Shown: one piece after another, positions 7,464-28,072 of the stretch
Position numbering within the stretch: the stretch's first letter is position 1
How the letters are laid out: every line of letters begins with the position of its first letter
The notes under the pieces: generated by a model
Databases searched by the model: none
What the model saw: the letters and a program-made list of their open reading frames with translations, nothing else
Told to the model about the DNA's origin: nothing
Position numbers and translations under genes: made by a program
DNA from: Desulfuromonas sp.
Lineage (GTDB): Bacteria; Desulfobacterota; Desulfuromonadia; Desulfuromonadales; Desulfuromonadaceae
Length of the DNA: 36,802 nucleotides
Direction of reading: 5' to 3'
Assembly: GCA_028685815.1 (NCBI GenBank)
Contig: JAQUDG010000013.1
Coordinates: forward strand, 1 to 36,802

Positions 7464-8314
7464 TGAATCTTATGAGCGAAATCGGCAAACGAAAAGCTGT
7501 CAACCTTCTCTCCCTGAGCCTCGCCTGCGCCGCAGCCGGGCTGGGGTTGTTCTGGTTAATTTTTATCCTGGCCGATGTTTTACGCCACGGTATCGCTTAC
7601 ATCACACCGGAACTGTTTCTGAGTGAAGCAGCTCCTCCCGGAATGGAAGAGGGCGGCCTGAAGCATGCCTTTATCGGCCAACTGCTGATCACCCTGTTCG
7701 CGGTGCTGATCGGTATTCCACTGGGGATTCTTGGTGGTACCTGGCTGGCTGAATACGGGCGTCATCACAAGCTCGGCCGCTTTATCAGCACCCTGTCCGA
7801 TATTATGATTAGTGTCCCCTCAATTGTTATCGGCACCTTTGTCTATGCCGTGTTCGTCAAGCCGCTCGGCCATTTCAGCGGTTTTGCCGGCGCTCTAGCG
7901 CTCGCAATTATCATGATTCCCGTGGTGCTACGAACCACGGAAGAGATGATGGGGTTGGTGCCGTGGGAAATCCGCGAGGCAGCCTTTGCCCTCGGGGCGC
8001 CCTATTACAAGGTGATCCTACAGGTGGTCTATCGCGGCGCGGCAACGGGTATTTTTACCGGAATTCTGCTGGCGATTGCTCGGATTGCTGGTGAAACGGC
8101 GCCGCTGCTGTTTACCTCGTTTAACAATATGTTCCTGACCACCAATATGAATGAACCGATGCCTTCTCTGACTGTTACCATCTATCAGTACGCGATGGGC
8201 CCGTACGACGATTGGCATGAAATGGCCTGGGCGGCGTCCTTTGTTATCACTGTGTTTATTTTAGGACTGACAATTCTGGGCCGATTGATTATCCGGTGGA
8301 AATACAAGAATTGA
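7463..8314 (+). CDS. pstA: Phosphate ABC transporter permease PstA
   Basis: SVPSIVIGTFVYA, GAPYYKVILQVVYRGAATGIFTGILLAIARIAGETAPLLFT; ATG overlaps the pstC stop (GTG at 7460 also possible). Confidence 0.95.
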   Translation: MNLMSEIGKRKAVNLLSLSLACAAAGLGLFWLIFILADVLRHGIAYITPELFLSEAAPPGMEEGGLKHAFIGQLLITLFAVLIGIPLGILGGTWLAEYGRHHKLGRFISTLSDIMISVPSIVIGTFVYAVFVKPLGHFSGFAGALALAIIMIPVVLRTTEEMMGLVPWEIREAAFALGAPYYKVILQVVYRGAATGIFTGILLAIARIAGETAPLLFTSFNNMFLTTNMNEPMPSLTVTIYQYAMGPYDDWHEMAWAASFVITVFILGLTILGRLIIRWKYKN

Positions 8315-8394
8315 TGGTGACGATCATAAAAGGCCACCACGTAATGCAGGATGGTTTTTTGTAACTTAGCCACAAAAGCAGGAGCTTAACAAAT

Positions 8395-9153
8395 ATGTCC
8401 GATTCGATCATGAGCGTGAATAATTTGAATTTTTACTACCAGGGCAATGTGCATGCGGTTAAAAATATGTCTTTGCCGATAAAGCGTCATCAGGTCACTG
8501 CCCTGATCGGGCCTTCAGGCTGCGGCAAAACGACTTTTTTGCGTTGTTTTAATCGGATGCACGATCTGTATCCTGGCCATCGTCAAGAGGGGGAGATCCT
8601 CTTCGAGGGCAGTAACTTGCTGACTAGAAAAGATATTATTGAACTGCGAAGCCGGATCGGTATGGTTTTTCAAAAGCCGACTCCGTTCCCCATGAGCATT
8701 TTTGATAACATTGCTTATGGCTTAAGGCTAAAAGGGATAAGGAACCGTGCGGAACTGTCCGATCGAGTCGAGAAGGTTCTGAAGCAGGCGGCTATCTGGC
8801 AGGAGACCCACGATCGTTTGAAACAATCAGCTAATAGCTTATCTGGGGGACAGCAGCAACGCCTCGTTATTGCACGAGCTTTGGCGGTAGAGCCAGATGT
8901 GTTGCTGTTTGATGAACCGACCAGTGCCCTAGATCCGATCTCGACGGGTAAGATCGAAGAGTTGATGGTCAGCTTAAAGCAGGAGGTCACAATCCTCATC
9001 GTCACCCATAATATGCAACAGGCAGCGCGTATCTCAGATCATACTGCATTTATGTACATGGGCGAATTGATTGAGTTTGGACAAACCGAGACACTCTTCA
9101 CCAACCCCAGTGAAAAACTGACCGAAGAATATGTGACCGGCCGCTTTGGTTAA
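8395..9153 (+). CDS. pstB: Phosphate ABC transporter ATP-binding protein PstB
   Basis: Walker [20 protein letters not shown], signature [15 protein letters not shown], Walker [14 protein letters not shown]. Confidence 0.97.
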
Positions 9154-9189
9154 CCTTGAGTTGGCAGATTTGCAGCTCAACAAGAGAGG

Positions 9190-9870
9190 ATGCAAGTAAT
9201 GAAAAAAGTAGAGCAGGAATATATTCAATTAAAAACTGAGTTGACCAACATGTGTCAGGTGACAACATCTATGCTTCAGGATGTCACCACCGCACTAGTA
9301 ACACGCGACACCGCTTTGGCCGAAAGTGTCATCCAGCGTGATGATGAGGTTGATGATCTCGATACCAGCATAGATGAGCATTGCTTGAAGATGCTGGCAC
9401 TTTACGAACCGAAAGCAGTCGATCTGCGTTTTGTCGTAACTGCGCTGCGGATTATCGTTGATCTGGAACGCGTTGGCGATCATTGCACCAGCATCGCTGA
9501 GCAGGTGAAGCGGCTCAATGAATCCCCACCGGTCAAGCCGTATATCGACCTACCGAAAATGGCCGAGGCCACTATCGGTATGATTCAGGATGCCATTACT
9601 GCCTATTTCAACAAGGACGTCGATGCGGCCCTCGAAATTATCCAGCGCGATGATATTATTGATCAATTTGATAGCAAGATCACAGAGGAATTGCTAGGGT
9701 ATATGGGGACAGACCTCACCACCACCCGCAATGTTATTTCGTTACTGTTCATCGTTCGTAGTATTGAACGGGTCGCTGACTACGCAACCAATATTGCCGA
9801 GATGATCTATTTCATGGCAACCGGAGAAATTATCAAACACCGCTCACCCTACAAGGCAACCGATGGCTAA
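9190..9870 (+). CDS. phoU: Phosphate signalling complex protein PhoU
   Basis: Duplicated PhoU domain (DLERVGDHCTSIAEQ, SIERVADYATNIAEM). Confidence 0.95.
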   Translation: MQVMKKVEQEYIQLKTELTNMCQVTTSMLQDVTTALVTRDTALAESVIQRDDEVDDLDTSIDEHCLKMLALYEPKAVDLRFVVTALRIIVDLERVGDHCTSIAEQVKRLNESPPVKPYIDLPKMAEATIGMIQDAITAYFNKDVDAALEIIQRDDIIDQFDSKITEELLGYMGTDLTTTRNVISLLFIVRSIERVADYATNIAEMIYFMATGEIIKHRSPYKATDG

Positions 9871-10534
9871 AATACTGCTGGTCGAAGATGAAGACGCGTT
9901 GCGGGAGATCGTCACCTTCAATGTGAAAAATGCTGGGCACACGATTGTCGGTACCGATAATGCCAACGATGCGCTGATGATTCTTGAAGACTTTTTGCCC
10001 GACCTGATCCTGCTTGATATTATGCTGCCAGGGTTAAAAGGGGATCAGTTTTTGACGTTGATTCGAGCCAATGCCAAATTTGCCAGGATTTCAGTCATCG
10101 TTATTTCGGCCAAAAGCAGCGAGGAAAATATTGTTCATGTTCTCGAAGCGGGAGCGGACGACTATCTGACTAAGCCGTTCAGTATGAAGATTTTGTTGGC
10201 CAAGATCATAGTTGTCCTGAAACGGTCACGCGTTGAGGAGCCCGGGGATTTTCTCAACTACAAACAGATTTCTGTCGACGAAACCAACCACAAGGCTTTT
10301 GTCAATGGCCAGAAGATCATCTTGACCAACAAGGAGTTTGATCTGCTGTTGCTGTTTGTCAAATATCCCCGACGGGTGTTCACGCGTAATCAGATACTAA
10401 CGACTGTCTGGGGGTACGATGCTGATGTCTTCACCCGTACCGTCGATTCCCATATCTCAACCCTGCGCAAAAAGCTTGGTGGGTCGGGTCAAGTCATTAA
10501 GTCGATCGCCAAAATCGGTTATAAGGTGGAATAG
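9863..10534 (+). CDS. phoB: PhoB-like response regulator (REC + winged helix)
   Basis: REC (VEDED, LLDIMLPG, KPFS) and OmpR-type wHTH (LTNKEFDLLLLF, RTVDSHISTLRKKLG); overlaps the phoU stop. Confidence 0.9.
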   Translation: MAKILLVEDEDALREIVTFNVKNAGHTIVGTDNANDALMILEDFLPDLILLDIMLPGLKGDQFLTLIRANAKFARISVIVISAKSSEENIVHVLEAGADDYLTKPFSMKILLAKIIVVLKRSRVEEPGDFLNYKQISVDETNHKAFVNGQKIILTNKEFDLLLLFVKYPRRVFTRNQILTTVWGYDADVFTRTVDSHISTLRKKLGGSGQVIKSIAKIGYKVE

Positions 10535-12428: not shown

Positions 12429-13920
12429 TCGATAGTTCAAAAACCCGAATTCAGCCTCAGATGGTTAACTGAGCAGGGCTGCAAAATAAAAGTTCCATCA
12501 ATTTCCTGCCCAGAATCTGCAGGAAGGGTAAAAAACGCTCTTTTACAAAAGACAACAAAAGGCCGATGGCCTTCAAGATCAACCGCAGGTTGTATCCGAT
12601 TGCTGCCATGAGTGGATTGATCTTGTCTCCAAGGATTCCATGGAGTCGATTTCTCCCTAAGCAGCCTTCGGTTTTCTGATGCCCGATTATGGCTTCTATC
12701 GCGCTTCTGCGTTTGAGCTCTCGTTTGATCGTGGGGGTTACGTTTCTGCGTTGTCCGGATATGAAGACGTCGGTATCAGTTACACCATGACCGCGGTATC
12801 CGCGGTCTACGTAGCAGCGTTTTGCTCTGACGCCACTTAAGCGCGTTGCCTGGTCAAGTGCCCCTTGCAGGGTATGTCCATCATACGGGTTGCCTTCAAG
12901 GCCCTGGCTACCGATGATGAAGCCTTCTTTGTTGGTAGCGCAGATACTGACTTTATTGCCGAATTCGTAGCGCTTATGCGCTTTGCCTTTGCTGATGCAA
13001 GACACATGGGGTTCATGCAAACTGTAGAGTTTATGACTGTCCTGTTGTTGTTGCTGCAGTAAACGTTTGGCGTGAGTCAGTGAGTTCTTGAGATCTGAGG
13101 ATACAATGTCGCTCTTGCGTTCAATATCACGTACTACGCGACCTAGATAGGTCTTAAGGGTTTTGAGCATGCGCCGCATCCGTTTGTACTGTTTGGCATG
13201 GGCATAGCGTCCGGCTTTAAGGGCGGCCTGAGGGCCTTTGCGCTCATAGCTCTGACGTAGTTTAATTCCATGCTTTTGGGCCAGTTTCACCAGGTGCTCT
13301 CTGCTGCGGTTTAAGAGTTTGGCATCTGTCGGATACGTGATGTTCTTGGGCTGTACCGTGGTATCCACACTGACGCGTTCTAAGCTGCGTTTGCTTACTG
13401 CACCCGTGGAGATACCTACCTTAAGGGTCTGCTGCAAAAGCGTTTCCATGCCGTGATCCTGGATGCGTTTGCGCCATTTACTCAGCCCGCTTCTGGCAAT
13501 GGGCTTTTCATGCACAAAGAATGTTTCACCGCATAGGTACTGCCAGTAGGGATTCTCAGCCCACCGGTTGACTACATCATCTTCACTTAAGGAGTACAGG
13601 CTCTGCAGAAGAGTAAGGCCAACCATCATACGTGTAGGAATTGCAGGTCTACCGGCTTCTGAATACAGGGAACCAAATTCCTGATCCAGATGCTCCCAGT
13701 CTATTTGATCTGCAAGTTTGACCAGAGCGTTGGCTGGATCGCAAATAGCTTCCAGGCGCACCTGGAATAATTCGTCTTGAGCTTGCTTTTGTTGTTTTTT
13801 AGGTCGCATAGTTTTGCCAGAAAATTGAGGGTTAACAACTAGTTTCTTGCAAAACATTGCAAGATGTTTTCTATTGTTTTTGTAGTCAATTCAGCGCGTT
13901 ATGGAGTTTTGAACTACGGA
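12429..13920 (-). mobile_element. IS5-family-like insertion sequence, copy 1 (complete)
   Basis: Terminal inverted repeats TCGATAGTTCAAAA (12429-12442) and TTTTGAACTACGGA (13907-13920) flank an intact 466-aa transposase. Confidence 0.85.
12457..13857 (-). CDS. IS5-family transposase
   Basis: PTRMMVGLTLLQSLYSLSEDDVVNRWAENPYWQYLCGE, VSVDTTVQPKNITYPTDAKLL, CYVDRGYRGHG, KRRSAIEAIIGHQKTEGCLGRNRL. Confidence 0.93.
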   Translation of the reverse strand: MFCKKLVVNPQFSGKTMRPKKQQKQAQDELFQVRLEAICDPANALVKLADQIDWEHLDQEFGSLYSEAGRPAIPTRMMVGLTLLQSLYSLSEDDVVNRWAENPYWQYLCGETFFVHEKPIARSGLSKWRKRIQDHGMETLLQQTLKVGISTGAVSKRSLERVSVDTTVQPKNITYPTDAKLLNRSREHLVKLAQKHGIKLRQSYERKGPQAALKAGRYAHAKQYKRMRRMLKTLKTYLGRVVRDIERKSDIVSSDLKNSLTHAKRLLQQQQQDSHKLYSLHEPHVSCISKGKAHKRYEFGNKVSICATNKEGFIIGSQGLEGNPYDGHTLQGALDQATRLSGVRAKRCYVDRGYRGHGVTDTDVFISGQRRNVTPTIKRELKRRSAIEAIIGHQKTEGCLGRNRLHGILGDKINPLMAAIGYNLRLILKAIGLLLSFVKERFLPFLQILGRKLMELLFCSPAQLTI

Positions 13921-15478: not shown

Positions 15479-15612
15479 AGAGCGTAAAACCCAATTCTAC
15501 CGTAACTCTCTAAATCTATGGCAAAAATGTGTTTCTAAGTAATTTAGCGGGTAGTTTTATACAGCTTGGACTTTCTGTGTTTACAGTTTTATACAGAACT
15601 GTCTATTTATAG

Positions 15613-17130
15613 TTAGATTCCCGTTGCCACAAAGGAGGTTGTTTTGAACAAAGAGATCAAAGTTTTATCGAAAGATGAAGTGGCAACGAGTGTCGATCAA
15701 TTCACGGCGGGATTGACGCAGTACCTCAGAGAGCTAGGGTTACCGAATGAACATGTTCTCGTTCCTGTTCAGGAGCGCCAGCGGGTGATTGCTAACGTGC
15801 CTGATGTGATTGAGTTGATCGACGCTAATAGGAAATCAACTTCTATCTATTTGTCTAAATTTATTGCTGCCTGCGGCGCTGGCTTGTTTGATGCCGCCCT
15901 TAACTTCATCTGGGATGAAACTGTTGTAAATCTTCGAAATAAAGTGGCTCGTTTCGATTTGGAGTATTTTTATGACAGTGTGGTTACCGATACCAAGCGC
16001 AGAGCAAAGCTTAAAGACGAAGATGATCTTCAAAAGATTGAAGAATGGGAATTGGTTAGGGGTTGCCATCTTACAGGTATACTTTCCGACATTGGATACA
16101 AGCACTTAGACTATATAAGGGATATGCGAAATTGGGCCAGCGCAGCGCACCCAAACCAGAATGACCTCACTGGTTTTCAGTTGATAGCTTGGCTGGAAAC
16201 TTGTATCCGAGAAGTCATTGCTAAGGAGCCTGAGGGGCCGGTAATCGAGGTCAAGCGCTTTCTCAATAGTATTAGAAACACCACGCTCACTGAGCAGGAT
16301 GCCCAGTATATCAGGGCAGGAATTGAGTATTTGCCACCTGAGTTGGCAACTTCCGTACTCAGAACTCTATTTGGTATGTACACAACCAAAGATGCGGCAG
16401 TCCAGATTAAAAGCAATATTAAGCTGGTGGCTGGCTCCGCATGGAATGTGGCGCCCGATGAAGTTAAATACGAATGCGGCTTTAAATACGCGACCTTTGC
16501 GTCAAACGGGGAAGTAGATAGAAAAGAAGCTGCTAACGAGTTTCTTTCGGTTGTGGGGGGACTGCCGTTCCTTCCGAATGATACGTTGGCACTCGAAATG
16601 GCAGACAAAATCGAGAGTCTTTTTTCCGCGCATACGGGATTCAACAACTTTCACAACGAGCCGGCTCACGCCCGGGCTCTCGATGCCTACGTTTCTGCTG
16701 CCGGCACAGTACCTGATGCCGTGCGAAAATTTTATGTTAAGACACTCGTTATGGCCCGAATTGGCAATGGTCACGGAACATCAGAAATGGCTGTGCCATA
16801 TTACGAGCGCCTGATCACAAAGTTTGGTGAGGCCGAGTTACGAGAGGTGGCACTTCTTTTAACTGATCGTGAGTTTTCGTCTCGTATTGGGTTGCGATCT
16901 TGTCTTTCGAATTTCAGAGCATTGCTGGATCGGCTGGCGCCTCGAACTACTAATCAAGTGACTCAACAAGCGTTTGCTCAGATTCAAGGCGCTACCGATG
17001 CGCAAATTCCCAATCTGGGGAAAGACAGCGCATATAAACGGCTTCTGGGATTGCGGTAAATCTAACCAAGCCATGCACCGGATGCCAAAACCTGCGCGTC
17101 GCTCCGGTTTCGTCACCGGTGACGGCAGCG
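15613..17130 (+). mobile_element. Integron gene cassette 1 (HEPN-like)
   Basis: 5' boundary GTTAGATT (15612-15619) is the exact reverse complement of the R'' box AATCTAAC (17059-17066) of the downstream attC. Confidence 0.75.
15644..17059 (+). CDS. HEPN-like domain protein, otherwise uncharacterised
   Basis: 471-aa ORF; IRDMRNWASAAHPNQND matches the HEPN RNase-type R(N)x4-6H motif in helical context. Confidence 0.5.
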   Translation: MNKEIKVLSKDEVATSVDQFTAGLTQYLRELGLPNEHVLVPVQERQRVIANVPDVIELIDANRKSTSIYLSKFIAACGAGLFDAALNFIWDETVVNLRNKVARFDLEYFYDSVVTDTKRRAKLKDEDDLQKIEEWELVRGCHLTGILSDIGYKHLDYIRDMRNWASAAHPNQNDLTGFQLIAWLETCIREVIAKEPEGPVIEVKRFLNSIRNTTLTEQDAQYIRAGIEYLPPELATSVLRTLFGMYTTKDAAVQIKSNIKLVAGSAWNVAPDEVKYECGFKYATFASNGEVDRKEAANEFLSVVGGLPFLPNDTLALEMADKIESLFSAHTGFNNFHNEPAHARALDAYVSAAGTVPDAVRKFYVKTLVMARIGNGHGTSEMAVPYYERLITKFGEAELREVALLLTDREFSSRIGLRSCLSNFRALLDRLAPRTTNQVTQQAFAQIQGATDAQIPNLGKDSAYKRLLGLR

Positions 17131-17136
17131 TTATGT
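17060..17136 (+). other. attC recombination site
   Basis: R'' ATCTAAC, R' GTTATGT; long imperfect stem CACCGGATGCCAAAACC / GGTTTCGTCACCGGTG. Confidence 0.75.
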
Positions 17137-17315
17137 TCTACTCGAGGCATAGTTAAGTGTTTATAGATTACGAGAACCCGGAGCAGTATTTTACAGGTGA
17201 GCCGACGTCTGTTAGCACCCTTATTTTAGGTAGACGACTCTGGCGATTCTCAGCATTTGCCCAAGAACAAAAGTGACGGCAGAGCATTAATTGTTGTTAT
17301 CAATAAGGAAATACC

Positions 17316-19444: not shown

Positions 19445-19728
19445 AAGGTAAAAAAGTGGAAATTTACACTGGTACTCAAATGGTTCCAAAAAAACATGCG
19501 AAAATCATTTCGCAGCAACTTAGAAAATTAGGTTCCAAAACACCTAGCGGTTTGAAAATATCCAAAGATAGGTCTTTAGCTAACCTCTTGTATCTTGCTT
19601 GTGGTGGAGGTAAATACAGTTTAAAAGTAAAAAAAATTTTGACTATTGGTAACAGTGAATTTTGTTTAGATGAAAAAGGCATAAAAGATTTGTGCAAAAA
19701 GTCTATAACTCGAAGTTTAAGCGCCTAA
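19441..19728 (+). CDS. Small basic protein of unknown function (cassette gene)
   Basis: 95-aa Lys-rich ORF ending inside an attC R'' box. Confidence 0.5.
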   Translation: MEGKKVEIYTGTQMVPKKHAKIISQQLRKLGSKTPSGLKISKDRSLANLLYLACGGGKYSLKVKKILTIGNSEFCLDEKGIKDLCKKSITRSLSA

Positions 19729-19783
19729 CAAATCGCTAAACCCGACCGCGCTAGCGCGCGGCTGGTTAGCTAAAACGTTAGAA
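19723..19783 (+). other. attC recombination site
   Basis: R'' GCCTAAC, R' GTTAGAA, stem around CCGCGCTAGCGCGCGG. Confidence 0.7.
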
Positions 19784-22831: not shown

Positions 22832-23646
22832 TTCTTAAAATAAAGGATGGGGAAAATGATTACAGCAGAATATGTAGAAAAGTATGTTGCACTTTGGGAA
22901 GCTCGTCATGATAGCTGGGTATCGCAATATTTAGCTAGCCTGCTAGGCACTGACAAAAAAACTATGTCGGAGATTCGACCTATCCTCAAAAAAAAGACGC
23001 TAACCGACTGGCGAGTAGCTCTTGCTTTTTTTATCGACAGAACTACCTACCAATCAAGGAAAGACATAATAAACCTCAGAACAGCGACCTATCTTTTCAA
23101 AAAAATAATCTCACTCCCCGAGGAGTTTTCAGTTGAAGAAAATGAAAAACTTTTACAAGAAATTAAAAAAGAGAAAGCAACAGGTCGCGTAACACACATC
23201 AGAGAAAGGGCTGACATCGAAAGGCTTGAAGCAGTTCTAAAATATTTGCAATTTTCGAAAGAAAAAAATTTCACAAAAATAATTCTAAGCATTCCATCAG
23301 AAAAGGAATTGTGGAAATTTCTGGACCAATTTCCTTTCGTAAGTAAAAACAAAACAGCGCCATTTTATATGAAATTCATATCTTGGGCGCACGATATAAA
23401 TATTGAACCCATTGCAATAGATAGGCATGTAATAAATTCACTTGCATCAAACGGTCTCAGCAACAAAAGTTCATCAAAAGCAATAATGGAAATAGCAAAT
23501 CAATTGAACATGCCCGCAGTAAAAGTCGAAACTGCGCTCTATGAAGATTCTTGGCGAAAATCAAACAACGACTTCTTTAAATGCAGATAAAGCCTAACGA
23601 ATAAGGATAGATAGCGCGAGGGACGAGCCGCGATCTTATCCTGTGG
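22826..23646 (+). mobile_element. Integron gene cassette (HhH-GPD-like)
   Basis: 5' boundary GTTAGGCT reverse-complements its R'' AGCCTAAC exactly. Confidence 0.85.
22856..23590 (+). CDS. HhH-GPD DNA-glycosylase-fold-like protein (tentative)
   Basis: FPFVSKNKTAPFYMKFISWAHDINIEPIAIDRHVINSL resembles the HhH-to-catalytic-Asp segment of HhH-GPD proteins (PxDxHV). ORF also open from 22847. Confidence 0.4.
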   Translation: MITAEYVEKYVALWEARHDSWVSQYLASLLGTDKKTMSEIRPILKKKTLTDWRVALAFFIDRTTYQSRKDIINLRTATYLFKKIISLPEEFSVEENEKLLQEIKKEKATGRVTHIRERADIERLEAVLKYLQFSKEKNFTKIILSIPSEKELWKFLDQFPFVSKNKTAPFYMKFISWAHDINIEPIAIDRHVINSLASNGLSNKSSSKAIMEIANQLNMPAVKVETALYEDSWRKSNNDFFKCR

Positions 23647-23652
23647 TTGGAC
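23592..23652 (+). other. attC recombination site
   Basis: R'' GCCTAAC, R' GTTGGAC; stem ATAAGGATAGATAGCGCG / CGCGATCTTATCC. Confidence 0.75.
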
Positions 23653-24939: not shown

Positions 24940-25812
24940 TGATCAAACCATTGATGGTGGTCAGAGAATCCTGCTCAGCGACCTCGGTCAGGTGCGCATA
25001 GCGGGCGGTTGTGATCGGACTCGAATGGCCAAGCAAGCTCTGGATATGGCGTAGACTTAAGCCACGTTCGAGCAGATGGGTGGCAAAACTATGGCGCAGG
25101 GAGTGAGTTGAGATTTTTTTTTAATACCGCACTCTGCAACAAGCAGCTTGATGGTTTTTTGCACACCGCCGCGATCCATGTGGGTGGTCGCCCTGCGGAT
25201 CGTTTCCGGCGAGCCGTTGGCATTGGGAAAGAGCAAGGCCGGGTGACGATGTATCCGCCACAAGTCCCGCAAGGCGTGGTAGGTAAGGTCGGGCAAAGGA
25301 ACCAGCCGATCCTTGTTCCCTTTACCGCGCCGCACATGCACCCGTTTCTGCTGAGCATCAATATCGCCGACCTGAAGGGACAGAGTTTCTTCCAGACGCA
25401 GCCCCAAGGAATAGGTGGTTAAGAAAAACACGCGGAAGCGCATTTTACGGGCAGCCCCGATCAATTTGACTACCTCAGATGGCGTCAAAATATCTGGAAT
25501 GGTTTGAATCCTGGGCGGCTTAACAATATTAACCCACTGCCAATTCCGTTTGAGGACGTGTCGCCAGAAGAATTGCAGGCCATTGCGGTCGACCTTGACC
25601 GTACTCCAGGAATGAGAATCCACCAGCTGGCCAAAGTAGTCCTCCAGTTGGTCCGGGGTCAGCCGGTCAGGGCAACAATCGAAATGCTTCGTCACACGGC
25701 GGACCGCACGCGCATAAACATCAATGGTCTTGTCGCTCTTTCCCTGCAGCTTCAGCATGCGCAGGTGACGTTGATACAGATCGTTAAAGCGGGATTGTTC
25801 AGATAAATCCAT
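24887..25812 (-). pseudogene. Tyrosine recombinase accompanying IS91; frame changes at a 9-A run
   Basis: MDLSEQSRFNDLYQRHL...YSLGLRLEETLSLQVGDID...GKGNKDRLVPLP; after A9 (minus strand, ~25113-25121) the other frame reads [49 protein letters not shown]. Confidence 0.85.
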
Positions 25813-26928: not shown

Positions 26929-27481
26929 TGTGTTAGAAGAACAGCTACGAGAGTGTTTTGGTCGTGTCGCTTGGTCACATAAAACACACGAAAAATGCTC
27001 CGACATACTGAATACTCGGCTTAACCGTATAAAGCTCTGGCAGATCATACTGTCGGCAATTACAACAACGGGAATTATCGCTGCTGTTTTTGGTGAGTCT
27101 AAGGAAATAGGCATTCTTTCAGCAGTACTGTCTTTTGTTCTGACCGTTTTAAACACCTATGTAAAACAATATGATCTTGGTGGTTTGGCCCAGAAGCATG
27201 CAGATGCAGCAGTAGACCTGTGGAATATGAGGGAATCTTATCTTTCTCTCTTAACAGATATAAGGTCTGGTTGCGTAGAAATTGATGAAATAAGAAAGAA
27301 CAGAGACGATCTTCAGGATAACCTATTGGAAATATATAGGGGCTCCCCTAGAACTATTGCTAAAGCCTACAAAGAAGCTACGAAAGCTTTAAAAAAGCTC
27401 GAAGAGCTAACTTTTAGCGATACAGAAATAGATGCTATTTTACCGAAAGCTCTACGGAAGTCTGAGCGCAATGGCTTATAA
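26906..27481 (+). CDS. SLATT-domain 2-TM effector protein
   Basis: Two TM helices (IILSAITTTGIIAAVFG, IGILSAVLSFVLTVLNTYV), then DLGGLAQKHADAAVDLWNMRESYLSLLTDI; overlaps the CD-NTase stop. Confidence 0.8.
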   Translation: MDQNSLPNVLEEQLRECFGRVAWSHKTHEKCSDILNTRLNRIKLWQIILSAITTTGIIAAVFGESKEIGILSAVLSFVLTVLNTYVKQYDLGGLAQKHADAAVDLWNMRESYLSLLTDIRSGCVEIDEIRKNRDDLQDNLLEIYRGSPRTIAKAYKEATKALKKLEELTFSDTEIDAILPKALRKSERNGL

Positions 27482-27540
27482 CAAGGCGCTGCTGCCGGAC
27501 AAATTCTCCGCTGCGCTCCAAATTTGCCGCAGAGCGCGGC
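27476..27540 (+). other. Truncated attC of the CBASS cassette
   Basis: R'' TTATAAC and hairpin GCTGCTGCCGGACAAATT...AATTTGCCGCAGAGCGCGGC present; expected GTT core replaced by intI sequence ATTCCAC. Confidence 0.75.
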
Positions 27541-28072
27541 ATTCCACAGCCAGGTAGGTCAAAAAATCTCTGACCTCGGTGGGTGTAAGAATATGTGCAT
27601 CGCGGCTTTTTACAAACGTCTGGAACTTGCGTATCCAACTGCGATAGCTCTGCAACGTCCTTTTTGAATAATGGCGAACTTTGATCTCTTCTTCCAGTTT
27701 TGCGTAAATCCAGCGCCAGTCTTTTCCGGTATACGACTGCGCCTTCGTGCCCGTCGGTGTCTCCTCCTTCTGCATTGCAGGCAACGAAAGCGTTTTATTC
27801 TGCTTCCTTTCTTTTGTCGCCAACATCTGAAGATACACTTCGACCGCTTCCTGAGCCTGCACGCGGAGTTTTTGTGGTTGCCCTTTGTCCGAAAGTTTTT
27901 GCACAAATAGCTGCAGGCTGGCGGGATCCGAATAAGGGTGTCGGTATTTATGGCAAAAGTCCACGTAGAACCGCAGCCATTTCCGGAAATGGCTCTGCAG
28001 GGGGGCCGGAACACCGCACTTTACCATGTGGGCATTAAAGGCCTGAGTGAGCTTTTCAGGGAGTGCTATCAT
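27541..28072 (-). pseudogene. intI: Integron integrase, N-terminal ~175 aa only, catalytic domain lost
   Basis: FRKWLRFYVDFCHKYRHPY extension and YAKLEEEIKVRHYSKRTLQSYRSWIRKFQTF...LTPTEVRDFLTYLAVE match the SAM-like domain of IntI (cf. IntI1 [29 protein letters not shown]); sequence after LAVE is attC-derived. Confidence 0.85.

Follow-up and report, generated by a model that had tools for sequence, protein, structure and literature searches.

A mobile integron cassette encoding a candidate HEPN-type RNase with a C-terminal helical solenoid and a possible role in abortive infection

The DNA analysed here (hereafter the window) is a stretch of 36,802 nucleotides from Desulfuromonas sp. (contig JAQUDG010000013.1), which harbors on its forward strand an integron gene cassette of 1518 bp (15613-17130, +), beginning with TTAGATT and ending on the G of the attC core GTTATGT. 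The left border lies in the core site GTTAGAT (15612-15618, +), the exact complement of the ATCTAAC that opens, at 17060, the 77-bp attC recombination site (ATCTAAC ... GTTATGT; 17060-17136, +), and the recombination points are G15612^TT and G17130^TT. The original prediction had reported an exact boundary match for a cassette ending at 17136. The match holds, with GTTAGATT from 15612 agreeing with AATCTAAC at 17059-17066 in inverted orientation (8/8), but position 17136 marks where attC finishes, and recombination takes place at G17130^TT.

Near-identical copies in unrelated genomes (a Methyloprofundus MAG, L002; a Pseudomonadaceae MAG, L003; and Allopseudospirillum, L004), with proteins 94-96% identical, part from one another at exactly the borders of the window cassette. 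On the left, all copies, including that of the window, are alike starting at G^TTAGATT and unlike before it. On the right, the attC sites of the window, L003 and L004 are alignable through GTTA (window 17130-17133) and diverge directly after, while L002 runs to the contig end and thus informs on the left border only. Folding of the attC bottom strand beats all 200 dinucleotide shuffles (z = -2.67), and the attC scan score by itself falls within the range of shuffled sequence and is not significant; the cassette call is secure because of the comparison with relatives, and not because of the attC score. A GTTAAGT at 17152 was considered as the attC end and dropped, since the sites of the relatives finish at GTTA. 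The 471-aa ORF therefore sits in a genuine integron cassette, which, as had been proposed, is its own and is filled by one stand-alone gene.

No attC was found upstream of the cassette in this contig, and it is for this reason considered a lone cassette. The L004 copy is likewise lone, between other genes, and attC sites lie just upstream of the copies in L002, L003, L007 and L012, placing them in arrays. As read by eye from the sequences, rather than with a calibrated attC model, cassette borders or remnants are present in about 11 of 20 loci (window, L002, L003, L004, L006, L007, L008, L010, L011, L012 and L020); these loci, which include a Clostridia MAG, differ in their attC types. No empty site was found, the right flank being absent from 14 relatives. 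Elsewhere in the genome, two integron integrase genes score above the TIGR02249 cut-off (contigs C21 and C65), and neither adjoins the cassette.

The C21 integrase is of normal length, and that of C65 (G000 C65:3389-4324), which also scores above the cut-off, is extended at its N-terminus by about 170 residues (479-aa frame). Two broken tyrosine recombinases were identified in the window (24968-25812 and 27476-28072, both on the minus strand), one similar to an integrase interrupted by a stop and the other corresponding to the N-terminal portion of a long integron integrase; C65 harbors the same kind of recombinase pair, with its second gene intact (479 aa). The window also contains attC-like sites at 19723-19783 (+), 22831-22745 (-), 29730-29642 (-) and 23592-23652, all scoring within the shuffled range, and the contig seems to carry several scattered cassettes in both orientations.

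The sole plausible gene in the cassette is a candidate HEPN-type RNase gene (15644-17059, +) of 471 aa, which, as originally described, contains the sequence RNWASAAH (R162-H169). It opens with a TTG start preceded, 5 nt upstream, by a Shine-Dalgarno-like AGGAGG (15633-15638, +; within AAGGAGG), and both elements are common to L002, L003 and L004. No sigma-70 promoter-like site was detected ahead of the gene on its strand, and the window yielded no Rfam match. Comparison with close copies resulted in dN/dS values of 0.026-0.050 (dS 0.35-0.94; dN 0.017-0.028), showing strong purifying selection on the protein.

Homology searches revealed substantial matches in 20 further genomes and homologs in 79 plasmid records from Escherichia, Klebsiella, Shigella, Streptomyces, Bacillus, Rhodococcus, Listeria and others. 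Relatives of the 471-aa protein are scattered over at least five bacterial phyla, and the distribution of the gene is sporadic and often plasmid-borne: it is present in 1 of 58 relatives, in 7 of 277 genomes of the class and, for the form found in E. coli, in 50 of 5426 complete genomes of that species. All annotated homologs seen are listed as hypothetical proteins. No model in Pfam, NCBIfam or PADLOC (PADLOC 2023) matches the protein, a Pfam DUF693 match (E = 0.13) having been dismissed as chance, and the earlier statement of no recognisable family stands for these collections but not for PHROG_27609, of uncharacterised function, which matches it with E = 9e-66. The INPHARED phages contain no match to the protein.

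Two arrangements among the relatives were observed in passing. In Virgibacillus (L021) the family gene appears split, its N-terminal part running into an 826-aa frame (7953-10433) and a second matching frame (12550-13146) lying 2 kb downstream, as if an inserted element interrupted the gene. In four E. coli and Shigella regions (L026, L030, L051 and L052) the homolog is preceded by genes for a BCCT transporter (betT) and a DUF2254 protein, and the order is the same on plasmids and chromosomes; the three genes seem to travel together as one block.

Based on AlphaFold models and on comparison of their layout with the HEPN survey of Anantharaman et al. (PMC3710099), residues 68-193 (15845-16222, +) constitute a candidate HEPN helical region. 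The models of the 471-aa protein are all-helical, and in them this region comprises a long helix with the conserved E92 and R98, a short-helix insert, a helix (149-167) ending at the motif and a further helix (177-193); the N-terminal model is of medium confidence, with a shallow alignment behind it. The R162-x6-H169 motif, RNWASAAH (16127-16150, +), retains its R and H in 22/22 sequences of alignment A1, and R162, N163, H169 and P170 are kept in 14 of the 15 sequences of the diverse alignment A3, six of which are at just 17-36% identity, with the motif kept in five of these. The same four residues, out of nine motif positions, rank among the 25 most conserved of 471 in A3 (hypergeometric P = 7e-4). 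The original prediction had been open to refutation by lack of conservation of the R/H pair in homologs, and the pair is conserved in both alignments.

By itself the R-x4-6-H pattern carries no significance: shuffles of the sequence contain 1.5 matches on average, and the stricter R[NDH]x3-5H is present in 17% of them. Because chance motifs are this common, it is conservation, and not the bare R-x6-H, that carries the HEPN case, and the initial designation of R-x6-H as a catalytic-type motif is supported on the former ground but not on the latter. In described HEPN domains the motif is placed at the end of helix 3 and the beginning of the loop toward helix 4, R is typically followed by a polar residue, R-x6-H spacing is allowed and an acidic residue is found in an upstream helix (PMC3710099). 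In the AlphaFold models helix 149-167 carries R162 at its end, and H169 falls in the loop that leads to helix 177-193, matching the HEPN position; the residue following R162 is the polar N, as is typical in HEPN, and the acidic E92, conserved in 12 of 15 sequences, is located in an upstream helix, again as described for HEPN.

HEPN families are very divergent. Foldseek searches against the PDB with full-length and domain models returned no significant HEPN structure match (none at E <= 0.001; 1wwp at E = 5), a viral fold search with the model yielded nothing significant, and no Pfam HEPN model reaches its cut-off (weak matches, E 0.045-0.23). The structural check proposed at the outset supports the helical fold and the position of the motif, but not the assignment to HEPN by structure search. 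Aligning A3 with hhalign to three known HEPN families placed the motif inside the aligned stretch each time, which was not the case for ferritin, at probabilities of at most 3.7% that derive from small alignments and are in no case significant. Pairwise comparison resulted in z = 4.7-5.8 with five members of the Abi_C family, with no ferritin control above 4, and one Abi_C (PF14355) protein presents RNRASGAHPN versus RNWASAAHPN here. Judging from sequence conservation and the predicted models, the N-terminal region is likely, though not proven, to be HEPN.

The C-terminal part of the protein, which had been described as long and helical, is indeed modeled by AlphaFold as an all-helical solenoid (residues 198-467; 16235-17044, +), mostly at pLDDT 86-96, and constitutes the candidate sensor or autoinhibitory part. 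In Foldseek it weakly resembles ARM/HEAT-like solenoids, importin alpha among them. The solenoid contains a second conserved site, N335-F336-x2-E339 (16646-16660, +), whose N, F and E are invariant in all 15 sequences (15/15), including the relative that lacks the R/H pair (L028), and G374 and G378 are conserved further along. Retention of the site after loss of the nuclease motif has the look of a sensor or scaffold. The relative in question, encoded on a plasmid of Vibrio sp. dhg (L028, 1900-3222), has lost R162 and H169 and kept the C-terminal N-F-x2-E; it might act as a regulator without catalytic activity, located near a PstI-type restriction system.

Several copies of the gene are found next to or near defense genes. 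An OLD nuclease gene lies 51 bp from the Vibrio tapetis copy and AbiJ directly adjoins that of Listeria, while Septu PtuAB and a type I S gene (Pseudomonas, L013), HerA-DUF4297 (Pantoea), a type IIG restriction-modification module (Alteromonas), PDC-S56 (Metabacillus), TIR-NLR (Rhizobium) and DRT3 (in a P4-like satellite of E. coli) are located near others. Defense matches at E <= 1e-30 were obtained for 8 of about 77 neighbor proteins, versus 0 of 67 in control regions taken from 12 of these genomes and plasmids (Fisher P = 0.007), an enrichment that is supportive and not conclusive, as the neighbor set was partly hand-picked for large ORFs. Counted by locus, the enrichment is modest (5/20 versus 0/12, P = 0.13; 7/22 with the AbiJ and TIR-NLR loci, P = 0.036).

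These results are best accommodated, at slightly better than even chances, by a mobile integron cassette representing an undescribed family of stand-alone, two-part HEPN-type RNases that act as abortive-infection effectors, the RNase and anti-phage roles being those we infer. Under this reading, the N-terminal helical region (approximately residues 68-193) would bear an R-N-x5-H-P active site, would presumably form a dimer and cleave RNA independently of metal ions, while the C-terminal solenoid, with its invariant N-F-x2-E, would keep the nuclease silent and free it on meeting an infection-linked molecule or protein. The freed RNase would then stop translation, so that the infected cell would no longer support the phage. 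No antitoxin gene accompanies the 471-aa ORF in the cassette, and therefore the switch would have to be internal, silence before infection being assumed to be built in. The initial suggestion of an undescribed HEPN defense gene is thus borne out as regards its defense-gene neighbors and the failure to find a described family, but the HEPN fold itself has no significant structure-search match. This last result, together with the medium-confidence N-terminal model, the Pfam HEPN scores below cut-off and the absence of R/H in L028, argues against the favored reading.

Purifying selection this strong is, moreover, unusual for a gene engaged in an arms race with phages and counts against the abortive-infection reading. 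It is compatible with an HEPN-type RNase whose role is not phage defense but dormancy under general stress or the stability of the cassette, a proposal made in 2013 for the HEPN protein of an integron cassette (PDB 3jrt; PMC3710099), and the many loci (about 11 of 20) at which the gene resides in cassettes or their remnants, often without adjoining defense genes, point in the same direction. Other copies do, however, adjoin OLD, Septu, HerA-DUF4297, AbiJ and TIR-NLR genes, and an addiction role would need an antitoxin, which the cassette lacks; we regard this explanation as rather unlikely, if the strongest of those weighed against abortive infection. It is less probable still that the helical domain is not HEPN and that R-N-x5-H-P serves structure or ligand binding in a wholly helical protein of different function. 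The lack of fold and family matches, the frequency of chance R-x4-6-H and the L028 relative without the motif would all fit such a protein, but the motif is conserved at low identity, is positioned at a helix end with a polar residue after R, is accompanied by a conserved upstream E and has a close local match in an Abi_C protein. That the 471-aa protein is a component or accessory of adjoining multi-gene defense systems, as its direct adjacency to AbiJ in Listeria and to OLD in Vibrio tapetis and the tight gene runs around the Vibrio dhg and Listeria copies might suggest, is improbable given that the neighbor differs in every genome and that in many genomes the gene moves by itself as a cassette.

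The abortive-infection reading can be extended, tentatively and with less confidence than the reading itself, to a new HEPN family spanning at least five phyla that would provide one-gene abortive infection, with the N-F-x2-E solenoid as a new infection sensor and with integron cassettes, plasmids and satellites as vehicles of its mobility. If correct, a compact single-gene defense, listed as 'hypothetical protein', would reside on plasmids of E. coli, Klebsiella and Shigella and circulate also as integron cassettes, backing the idea that integrons stock anti-phage genes besides antibiotic resistance genes, and the two conserved sites would make nuclease and sensor directly testable by point mutation.

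HEPN effectors, integron-borne HEPN proteins (PDB 3jrt) and integron defense cassettes are already known kinds. The family and its HEPN-plus-solenoid layout matched no model or solved structure tested, the defense papers of 2025-2026 being compared by description. According to PMC12409362, which cites Kieffer 2025, Darracq 2025 and Getz 2025, single cassettes protect against phages and integrons act as defense libraries; the 15613-17130 cassette is likened to these cassettes by description and not by sequence. The integron cassette HEPN family of PDB 3jrt (PMC3710099) similarly consists of an HEPN-type gene on integron cassettes that retains R-x4-6-H, and the cassette family has no meaningful sequence match to PDB chains, 3jrt included. 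The pEK499_p136 HEPN family (PMC3710099), named from an E. coli plasmid, is likewise found with defense genes, but no Pfam HEPN model scores the cassette protein or its E. coli homolog.

As described in PMC13092281, DS-11 (CBS plus HEPN) and other DefensePredictor HEPN systems also combine an HEPN nuclease and a regulatory part in one protein, and mutation of catalytic residues in these systems abolishes defense; the second part here differs from that of DS-11 in being a helical solenoid, and the remaining systems are compared by description only. A further likeness is to AbiJ/Abi_C (PF14355), a single-gene abortive-infection type that adjoins the cassette family in Listeria and shares with it the R-N-x5-H spacing (R-x6-H), with RNxASxAHPN in common with one Abi_C member, although the cassette protein has no match to PF14355 above cut-off. 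The HEPN domain of AbiJ/Abi_C proteins is C-terminal, after AbiJ_NTD, whereas in the cassette protein the motif lies in the N-terminal third and is followed by a predicted helical solenoid of about 270 residues.
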